64,000 bases of DNA from Chloroflexus sp. Y-396-1 (lineage in GTDB: Bacteria > Chloroflexota > Chloroflexia > Chloroflexales > Chloroflexaceae): NCBI RefSeq assembly GCF_000516515.1, contig NZ_KI911784.1:2822881-2886880 (forward strand), written 5' to 3'. Below are positions 33,957-38,853 of this stretch, piece by piece (positions within the stretch are counted from its first letter, which is position 1; each line of letters starts with the position of its first letter). The position numbers and the translations under genes are program-made. The notes under the pieces were generated by a model. It did no database searches. It had not been told where the DNA came from and saw only the letters and a program-made list of their open reading frames with translations.

Positions 33957-34032
33957 TGGCGACCCGGGAGGGACTCGAACCCCCAACCAACGGTTCCGAA
34001 GACCGTTGCTCTATCCATTGAGCTACCGGGCC
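33957..34032 (-). tRNA. tRNA-Arg (anticodon UCG)
   Basis: A complete cloverleaf of 76 nt on the minus strand, with the 3' CCA encoded. The acceptor stem is GGCCCGG with CCGGGTC (one G-U pair), the D stem GCTC/GAGC, and the anticodon stem ACGGT/ACCGT with loop CTTCGGA, giving anticodon TCG that reads CGA (and possibly other CGN) codons. The T arm contains GTTCGAGTC. It stands alone, about 70 bp upstream of hmgA. Confidence 0.96.
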
Positions 34033-36662: not shown

Positions 36663-38525
36663 TTACTCGACAGTGACGCTCTTGGCAAGATTACGTGGTT
36701 GATCGACATCGCATCCGCGCAGCACGGCGACGTGATACGCAAACATTTGTAACGGTATCACGTTAAGCACCGGTTGCAACAGGGGATGGGTAGTCGGTAC
36801 GCCGATGGCGTGGTGGGCCTTCTCGGCCAGCAATTCATCGCCCTGATGACCGATGGCTATCACCTGACCGTGACGCGCACGTACCTGCTCGATGTTGCTG
36901 ATCATCTTTTCATAGATGTGATCGCGCGTCGCGATACAGATAACGGGCATATTCTCGTCGATCAGCGCAATGGGACCGTGCTTCATTTCACCAGCAGGAT
37001 ATCCTTCCGCGTGAATGTAACTAATTTCTTTCAACTTGAGGGCGCCTTCGAGGGCGATAGGATAGTTGATCTGGCGACCAAGAAATAGTGCATTACTAAC
37101 ACGATGGTAGCGTTCGGCCAGTTCGATGCAGAGTGGCTTTGTCTGCTCGATCACTTGTGCCGCATGACCAGGTAGTTCGATCAGAGCCTGGATGTGCTCG
37201 CGAATCTGCTGTGGCTTGAGCGTTCCGTGAGCCTGGGCCAGCCGGAGAGCAAACAGATAGGCAGCTACCAACATTGATGTGAAGGCCTTGGTCGATGCCA
37301 CCCCAATCTCTGGCCCAGCATGCAGATAGATTGGACCGCCATCAGCTAGCCGAGCTGCCTGACTACCAATCGCATTGACGATAGCCACACTTGGTACACC
37401 CTGTGCGCGGGCTTCTTCCATTGCCGCTAATGTATCAACTGTCTCGCCGCTTTGGGTAATCGCCAACACCAGCGTATCGTGCTCACTATCGCTCTGCAAG
37501 ATAGGGTTACGATAACGAAATTCACTGGCGTAATCAACTTCGACCCGCACTCGGGCCAGATGCTCAATCATAAACTTGGCTACCAGTGCCGCATGCCAGG
37601 CGGTACCACAGGCAGTAGCGTAGATGCGGCGGATCCGTCGCAAATCATGGTCGTTGAGACGAAGATCCTCGAGTTCAATCCGCCCATGCTCCTGATCGAT
37701 CCGTCCACGCAAAACGTCCATCAGCGCCCGTGGTTGCTCATCGATCTCCTTCTGCATGAAATGGCGGTAATCGCCCTTGGCCGCTGCGACCGGATCCCAG
37801 GCGATACTGTGGATTGATCGTTCCACCGGTGTACCATCGAGGCGAGTCGTGGTCACGCTATCGCATCGGACAACTGCAATATCCTGATCCTCTAGGAAGA
37901 TCAGATCACGGGTGTAATCGAGAATGGCCGGAATATCTGAAGCGATAAACCGTTCGTCGTTCCCGATACCAATGGCGATACCGCCCGCGTTTCCCAGGCG
38001 AGCAGCGATGAGTCGGTCTGGTTCATGAATACAAAAAGCTACAATCGCATTCCCACCACGAAGTTCTCGCAAAGCACGATACATTGCGGTCTCAAGATCG
38101 CGCAGTTCGTCGTAGTAATGACCAATGAGTTTTGCAATCACCTCAGTATCAGTCTGCGAATCGAATTGATAGCCCAATTCGAGCAGACGCCCCTTGAGTG
38201 CGAGATAATTCTCTACGATCCCATTTTGAATGACCACAATCGCCCCACTGGCATCGCGGTGCGGATGGGCGTTGATTTCGGTCACGCCGCCGTGAGTGGC
38301 CCAGCGTGTGTGACCGATACCGATGTGACCATGCGTTGGTTCGGTCAGCAGTCGTTGTTGAAGATTGCTCAATTTACCAACGCTGCGGCGCAGTTGTAGA
38401 CCGGCTACTGGATCGTAAATCGCCACTCCCGCCGAGTCATACCCTCGATATTCCAACCGTTGTAAGCCGTGTAGTACCACCTCAGTCGCTTCCCGTTTCC
38501 CGACGTAACCCACAATGCCACACAT
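36663..38525 (-). CDS. glmS: Glutamine--fructose-6-phosphate aminotransferase
   Basis: 620 residues from ATG 38525 (AAGGAGTACGTT upstream). The Cys right after Met (MCGIVGYVGKREA) is the N-terminal nucleophile that releases ammonia from glutamine; RLEYRGYDSAGVA and the GNHGATHGG-like stretch (HTRWATHGGVTEINAHPH) complete the glutaminase domain. Two SIS domains bind fructose-6-phosphate (ATACGTAWHAALVAK, ITQSGETVDTLAA, YPAGEMKHGPIALID), and the end DQPRNLAKSVTVE is the conserved C-terminal tail. It makes glucosamine-6-phosphate, the first committed step to amino-sugar precursors of peptidoglycan. Its leader carries a glmS ribozyme (38672-38853), so product feedback is expected. Confidence 0.97.
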   Translation of the reverse strand: MCGIVGYVGKREATEVVLHGLQRLEYRGYDSAGVAIYDPVAGLQLRRSVGKLSNLQQRLLTEPTHGHIGIGHTRWATHGGVTEINAHPHRDASGAIVVIQNGIVENYLALKGRLLELGYQFDSQTDTEVIAKLIGHYYDELRDLETAMYRALRELRGGNAIVAFCIHEPDRLIAARLGNAGGIAIGIGNDERFIASDIPAILDYTRDLIFLEDQDIAVVRCDSVTTTRLDGTPVERSIHSIAWDPVAAAKGDYRHFMQKEIDEQPRALMDVLRGRIDQEHGRIELEDLRLNDHDLRRIRRIYATACGTAWHAALVAKFMIEHLARVRVEVDYASEFRYRNPILQSDSEHDTLVLAITQSGETVDTLAAMEEARAQGVPSVAIVNAIGSQAARLADGGPIYLHAGPEIGVASTKAFTSMLVAAYLFALRLAQAHGTLKPQQIREHIQALIELPGHAAQVIEQTKPLCIELAERYHRVSNALFLGRQINYPIALEGALKLKEISYIHAEGYPAGEMKHGPIALIDENMPVICIATRDHIYEKMISNIEQVRARHGQVIAIGHQGDELLAEKAHHAIGVPTTHPLLQPVLNVIPLQMFAYHVAVLRGCDVDQPRNLAKSVTVE

Positions 38526-38671
38526 AACGTACTCCTTAACAATAACTGGCAACACCAGGGCACAGCAGTAGTCGTCTGTGGCGAAACGCAGTAGTACAGA
38601 CCACTGCTCAGCGCAGGTTGCAGCAGAGAAATCAATTGTGACGGTGGGGGGAAATTGTTAGTGGGTCGTTG

Positions 38672-38853
38672 CTGACAACGTTGCCCTAGTCGTCACCGAC
38701 AGGTGTTGAGTTGTCTGCTTCACCGGCGACGCCCTACGCCGGGGAGGCTTCCGCTGATCTCTCGATGTTCCGGGTCATCGATACCCGTTAGCTCCGGCTC
38801 GCGCCGGGAACCTCCGTCCTCGTCAACTTCACTCTTCGTGAAGTCCATGCGCT
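38672..38853 (-). ncRNA. glmS ribozyme: glmS ribozyme (GlcN6P-responsive self-cleaving leader)
   Basis: On the minus strand, about 150 nt before glmS. The expected cleavage step is A(38853)|G(38852) at the start of GCGCATGGACTT. A P1-like stem ACTTCAC/GTGAAGT is followed by the invariant GTTGACGAGG, then CGGAGG pairing with CCTCC. The core ATCGAGAGATCAGCGGAAGC parallels the same region of the Thermoanaerobacter ribozyme as I recall it. A 3' hairpin (CCGGCG...CGCCGG) and an outer stem GACAAC/GTTGTC (38710-38715 with 38674-38679) fit the accessory P3/P4 region. Between GGAGG and ATCGAGA lies an extra ~44-nt element (38767-38810). The class cleaves itself when glucosamine-6-phosphate binds, lowering glmS expression. 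Confidence 0.88.

Follow-up and report, generated by a model that had tools for sequence, protein, structure and literature searches.

A glmS ribozyme of Chloroflexus with a two-stem module beside the predicted cofactor pocket, and its relatives in Chloroflexota

The core of the glmS ribozyme is usually described as nearly uniform. McCown, Roth and Breaker reportedly described, in 2011, glmS ribozymes from Deinococcus-Thermus with additional stems within the catalytic core; extra core stems would be the likeness of these variants to the element presented here, and the module below is not claimed to be undescribed. In the available portions of the further glmS-ribozyme literature that was checked, no such insert was found described. 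The accessible text of PMC11602151 portrays the core as marginally stable, with a peripheral loop packing on P2.1, the register of which is C38-G55, G39-C54 and A40-U53 in B. subtilis. According to the part of PMC7125110 that could be consulted, the second P2.1 strand sits in the cofactor pocket.

The window analysed here is the whole stretch of 64,000 nt from Chloroflexus sp. Y-396-1. On its minus strand, positions 38864-38661 match RF00234 at 61.4 bits (E 2.7e-13; model positions 1-167), well above the gathering score of 37, which bears out a preliminary description that had recognised a glmS ribozyme from the letters alone. RF00234 matches this genome at this place only. The ribozyme lies 135 nt upstream of glmS, whose start at 38525 confirms the placement in the glmS 5′ leader, and its own upstream neighbour is a DsbB-family gene. 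A tRNA gene at 33960-34032 (-) is the sole further Rfam match in the window at gathering scores.

The element shares several features with RF00234 ribozymes such as those of B. subtilis, B. anthracis and T. tengcongensis: the cleavage-site context, the P1/P2/P2.1/P2.2 core, a P3-P4 domain with a GNRA loop (GUGA in the window) and the place upstream of glmS. It differs from them in that a two-stem module of 41 nt occupies the joint from P2 to P2.1, and in having P2.2 in the A5-bulge, U6-A53 form, not C5-G53. The whole element is a glmS ribozyme, of which the module is a variant. The cleavage-site context reads A|GCGCAUG at 38853|38852, and AGCGC at the predicted site is invariant in all 30 rows of alignment A1; the positions of this site, of GACGAGG and of AUCGAGAGAUCAGCGG agree with those proposed earlier. 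P2.1 and the three inner pairs of P2.2 have the expected letters in 20/20 rows of alignment A2, and U6-A53 is present in 18 of these rows; the ribozyme of the window has the same letters at these positions (see Table 1 for coordinates). Folding of the single sequence was set aside as evidence for the whole ribozyme, being weak (z -1.80) and giving a minimum free energy structure other than the pseudoknot fold.

Table 1. Features of the window ribozyme and its gene, and further ribozyme copies ahead of other genes
Feature	Position	Strand	Details
glmS, glutamine--fructose-6-phosphate transaminase	36663..38525	-	620 aa; TIGR01135 770.9 bits (cut-off 418.05)
Predicted cleavage site	38852..38853	-	A38853 (A-1) / G38852 (G1); aligned with RF00234
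P2.2 5′ strand CGCAUG	38846..38851	-	C2 G3 C4, A5 bulged, U6, G7; register from sequence
P1 hairpin	38825..38845	-	8 pairs and 5-nt loop, by sequence; covaries in A2 (helix 3)
P2.1 5′ strand CGA	38820..38822	-	Pairs with UCG 38765-38763; register after PMC11602151; invariant in A2
P2 5′ strand GGAGGUU	38809..38815	-	Pairs with 38749-38743
Insert stem A	38792..38808	-	GCGA tetraloop; bulged A38793
Insert joint CUAA	38788..38791	-	
Insert stem B (CGGGU/ACCCG)	38771..38787	-	17 nt in window; up to 111 nt in order
GAA (insert end) and joint CA	38766..38770	-	Last A abuts P2.1
P2.1 3′ strand UCG, loop, P2.2 3′ strand CAGCGG	38751..38765	-	RF00234 alignment and A1
P2 3′ strand	38743..38749	-	A2
Peripheral P3-P4 domain	38661..38742	-	GUGA tetraloop 38696-38693; RF00234-aligned to model position 167
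glnA-leader copies, f51	L223, L248:406-512, L454, L477-L480		
Divergent f19 copies	L455-L457, L459-L461, L463-L470		
Second copies at a PF01645 gene (two genomes), an FAD oxidase and a YvcK-phosphoglucomutase-like fusion	L452, L453, L471, L472		

The insert comprises 41 extra nucleotides (38808-38768), placed beside the cofactor pocket between P2 and the 3′ strand of P2.1. In relatives with no insert, a P2 of 7 bp is followed at the same site by a joint of some 2 nt: from ACGAGG to the 3′ strand of P2.1, 10 nt are found in 52 of the 55 distinct insert-less cores and 11 nt in the other three, in a count whose search pattern required at least 10 nt and so excluded shorter joints (9 nt in L084 and L101). 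Because insert-less cores carry just 10-11 nt there, the roughly 41 nt are truly extra, and the expectation of no more than a short joint here in ordinary glmS ribozymes holds for all 55. Likewise, the alignment sets 50 window bases opposite 8 RF00234 positions, so that the extra nucleotides noticed in the preliminary description are no standard part of the consensus. The joint from P2 to P2.1 in the window RNA is longer than in the Rfam consensus; this is a length variant and not a defining loss.

Read 5′ to 3′, the module consists of UU, stem A, nUAA, stem B and GAAnA; in the window, this order is UU (38810-38809), stem A, CUAA, stem B and GAA, followed by CA-UCG. The alignments show that, in the predicted fold, this two-stem module sits between P2 and P2.1, flanked by a conserved UU and, at its other end, by the pocket element xA-UCG. 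Since the window insert folded alone does barely better than its shuffles (z -1.26), the case for it rests on comparison with relatives.

For this comparison, RF00234 was scanned across the class, giving matches in 103/158 genomes. The order of the window corresponds to families f1-f4, in which 42 of 43 matches (the window and 41 others) were parsed. All 42 follow the pattern UU-A-nUAA-B-GAAnA, including UU at the end of the P2 5′ strand; the parser demanded nUAA and GAAnA, and none of the 42 rows was lost thereby. Match lengths fit this pattern, with about 200 nt or more in f1 and f4 (one exception, 165 nt) and mostly 147-165 nt in f9-f14, while matches in f2 and f3 are truncated at their 5′ ends because their insert is very long.

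Both hairpins that had been proposed within the insert are real, and both covary. Over the 42 rows, stem A pairs in 277/277 cells, with changes on both sides at 7/7 positions, in a count that picks the stem A register (bulge or none) for each row and thereby favours pairing; stem B pairs in 203/210 cells, with 5/5 pairs changed on both sides. For neither stem did any of 1000 shuffles match the real pairing. In A2, which consists of 20 rows, none from the genus of the window, and has a fixed stem A register, 100% of the stem A cells are paired (7/7 pairs with two-sided change) and 96% of those of stem B. The whole A2 structure, core helices included, reaches 98.9% pairing versus 86.6% for shuffled alignments and 30-46% for slid versions, with 0/500 shuffles as good. 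Unprompted, RNAalifold recovered stem B and the larger part of stem A from the 30 rows of A1; it further proposes a pairing between the GG of P2 and the joint's CU (A1 columns 80-81 and 102-103).

Conservation of the joints extends across the 109 distinct insert-bearing cores (111 minus L212, which has no module, and L424, which the pattern missed; the weak L440 is included). Here, the nUAA joint is present in 102, GAAnA in 96, an A directly before UCG in all 109 and a GNRA loop on stem A in 77. The length of stem B lies between 11 and 111 nt, and the sequence of stem A varies freely. Taken together, the comparison shows stems selected for pairing, joints selected for sequence and a module that travels with glmS. 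Seven of the 42 ribozymes (L136-L142, from f2 and f3) have GCGA instead of UCGA at the P2.1 3′ strand and a stem B of 85-111 nt; some f2/f3 ribozymes with this GCGA may be weakened.

The insert had been pictured as a three-way junction, and this stands for its two hairpins but not for the closing helix. The proposed 5 bp of GUUCC/GGAAC pair in 91% of cells versus 91.3% in shuffles, with two-sided change in 0/5 pairs, and in relatives the outer C and G form part of stems A and B. A remnant of the helix could be only UU/AA or UUC/GAA, of which UU/AA is invariant in the 20 rows tested. The joints invite comparison with the UAA/GAN motif, an internal loop in which UAA lies opposite GAN between two helices. 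As in this motif, UAA and GAA of the module occupy opposite strands and are both flush with stem B. The module differs in that no second Watson–Crick helix is evident beyond the loop, where the candidate closing UU/AA never varies, and in that 12/109 cores carry AAAnA.

Beyond the order, the same module occurs widely in Chloroflexota. RF00234 itself matches 125/400 genomes of the phylum. A covariance model, R1, was built from A2, in which the window's genus is absent, and it scores the window at 100.4 bits. R1 matches 50/82 genomes of the order, leaving 32/82 with no R1 match; relative to RF00234, it gains nine genomes and loses two. RF00234 thus overlooks members, namely in the nine order genomes matched by R1 alone. 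In the class of G334, 218/396 genomes have R1 matches, a count of matches and not of confirmed inserts; R1 picks up insert-less cores too, with lower but overlapping scores. Among named loci, the module is present in Anaerolineales UBA2200 (L032), in two Anaerolineae (L033 and L034) and in four loci titled Chloroflexi (L041, L046, L047 and L049); L047, L033 and some other loci parse poorly by regular expression, but for L047 the covariance alignment displays the module clearly, and in L033 it is recognisable only by eye. It is absent from the R1-matched (E ≤0.001) named loci of four Bacillota, one Coriobacteriia and one Anaerolineae (L037). A different insert, located in the loop after P2.1 and not before P2.1, was seen in L212, L228 and L244 (f46 and f30).

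The history of the module was approached via a GlmS tree of 112 distinct rows (126 extracted; at most 140 N-terminal residues each), the branching details of which are unsure because the alignment is short (141 columns). In this tree, a single branch (support 100/95) unites 71 of the 73 insert-bearing rows and contains no insert-less row; the other two, L257 and L414, stand outside it on unresolved forks. Forcing all 73 into a single clade is not rejected (p-AU 0.51), a result that hinges on L396: labelled insert-less, this row lowers p-AU to 0.0034, and labelled insert-bearing it yields the 0.51. The sequence of L396 carries the module, with GAGAA. The 23 GlmS rows of the order nest inside Anaerolineae-type rows, and a clade joining them to the other 23 rows of their own class is rejected (p-AU 0.0015), bearing in mind that these clade tests were run after the tree had been inspected. 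The simplest reading would be a single origin of the module and a transfer of glmS and ribozyme together to the order's ancestor.

Additional copies lie ahead of other genes. In f51, six of the nine R1-matched genomes hold a second copy upstream of glnA, encoding glutamine synthetase, and for two of the f51 genomes, G334 and G430, an ordinary copy ahead of glmS was demonstrated as well. The glnA calls rest on Pfam for three of the six proteins and on translated starts for the other three; that of L454 was also made by NCBIfam (TIGR00653, 555.9 bits; cut-off 429.15). RF00234 places three of these six copies above its cut-off (47.7, 46.6 and 42.9 bits) and three below (G430, 35.0; G467, 34.9; G250, 23.7 bits). 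Their 5′ strand reads AGCG[G/A]CUG; with the position-4 purine bulged out, this strand can pair.

In f19, 24 genomes have an R1 match and 15 of these have two copies. In 14 of the 15, an ada-like gene is the longest frame downstream of one copy (families checked for L456, L470 and L464). Most of these 14 divergent copies start with AGCG[G/A]CUG, no 5′ strand being visible at the match in L468-L470, and RF00234 missed all seven that were tested at E up to 1. A terminator-like hairpin and T-rich tail precede the ada-like gene in 14/14 cases, and for this reason the divergent copies may be separate, stand-alone RNAs. In the fifteenth two-copy genome, G243, and likewise in G770, a copy stands ahead of a gene carrying the glutamate-synthase domain PF01645; in G731, a copy precedes a YvcK-phosphoglucomutase-like fusion and in G545 an FAD oxidase.

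Glutamine synthetase makes the glutamine that GlmS uses, and the E. coli enzyme is subject to feedback inhibition by glucosamine-6-phosphate. If active, the glnA-leader copies would represent a glmS ribozyme controlling another enzyme. We regard it as a possibility, and a tentative one, that Chloroflexota harbour an undescribed glmS-ribozyme subfamily of one origin that spread with glmS between classes and was reused for glucosamine-6-phosphate-controlled nitrogen assimilation. A literature search by title, confined mainly to freely available papers, found no report of a glmS ribozyme ahead of glutamine synthetase, and nothing was found linking the glmS ribozyme with Anaerolineae.

As to function, the window RNA is probably a working glmS ribozyme, as predicted from its sequence, and a member of a distinct structural subfamily with an added two-stem scaffold domain. 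Glucosamine-6-phosphate would bind a preformed pocket, self-cleavage would occur at A38853|G38852, and destruction of the cleaved glmS message would follow, as in Bacillus. The module, for its part, would act as a scaffold that fixes P2 and P2.1 via the nUAA/GAA joint, perhaps with a docked stem A tetraloop, and would thereby make folding of the marginally stable double pseudoknot reliable; stem B would be a free arm, and its length could therefore vary. For stem A, however, the analysis revealed no docking partner, and its loop is GNRA in only 77/109 cores. Since the P3-P4 domain is retained beside it, the module is no simple replacement of P3-P4. Stabilisation in a warm habitat, as suggested in the preliminary description, is not favoured, because the module is also present in f2 and f3, where stem B is much longer (85-111 nt); one f2 genome, G042, is perhaps, on our assumption, that of the mesophile Herpetosiphon aurantiacus. 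This subfamily shows that a whole domain can sit beside the cofactor pocket, and its removable module offers a clean test of how the periphery props a marginally stable ribozyme core.

That the module stops two bases short of the pocket-side UCG, with conserved joints, and that module-bearing copies occur upstream of several different genes would also suit a role in tuning or gating cleavage next to the cofactor pocket, either as a second sensor or as a domain that binds protein. We consider this unlikely: the few conserved bases (nUAA and GAA) lie at the junction, as those of a structural joint would, and stem B spans 11-111 nt while the sequence of stem A changes freely. A scaffold fits better than a sensor because the letters of the pocket-side joint are conserved while the length of stem B varies freely. 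The same variability of stem B, along with the fast drift of its sequence, is what one would expect of neutral growth tolerated at a permissive loop. Yet a neutral insert would decay, whereas pairing persists in 42 order rows and roughly 100 of the 109 distinct cores keep the letters of the joints, which makes this reading improbable, as does the confinement of 71/73 insert-bearing glmS rows to one clade free of insert-less rows. Least probable of all is that the RNA retains the fold but no longer cuts, serving as a plain riboswitch or leader structure. Some relatives do alter core bases (the GCGA in P2.1 of 7/42 rows), and the activity of the window RNA is a prediction; against this, AGCGC, ACGAGG, UCG and GCGG are all intact in the window and its genus.

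The relatives also inform the pairing of P2.2, for which a 2007 survey, in the part of the paper available (PMC2258182), reported no significant covariation in P2.1 or P2.2. Two forms can be distinguished in the present set. In one, C4 C5 goes with G53 in 52/52 rows; in the other, different letters, mostly C4 A5 U6, go with A53 in 103/114 rows. The association between positions 4-5 and 53 has a Fisher p of 1.4e-32, a value that ignores kinship and comes from a count retaining probable false AGCG matches in long P1 loops (e.g. AGAG or GTGG at positions 4-7). The second form is read as a shifted bulge with a putative U6-A53 pair, and both forms are found with and without the insert. Natural covariation in P2.2 is now available from this ribozyme set.

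Finally, in L220-L259 and others, the 14 nt 5′ of AGCG (often GGGAAAG) complement a stretch about 15-20 nt past the core, forming a candidate helix across the cleavage site. Outside the order, 38/72 insert-bearing rows score above 95% of their shuffles, compared with 3/39 order rows and 2/55 insert-less rows; the group of 72 wrongly includes L030, which belongs to the order, and L212, which lacks the module.
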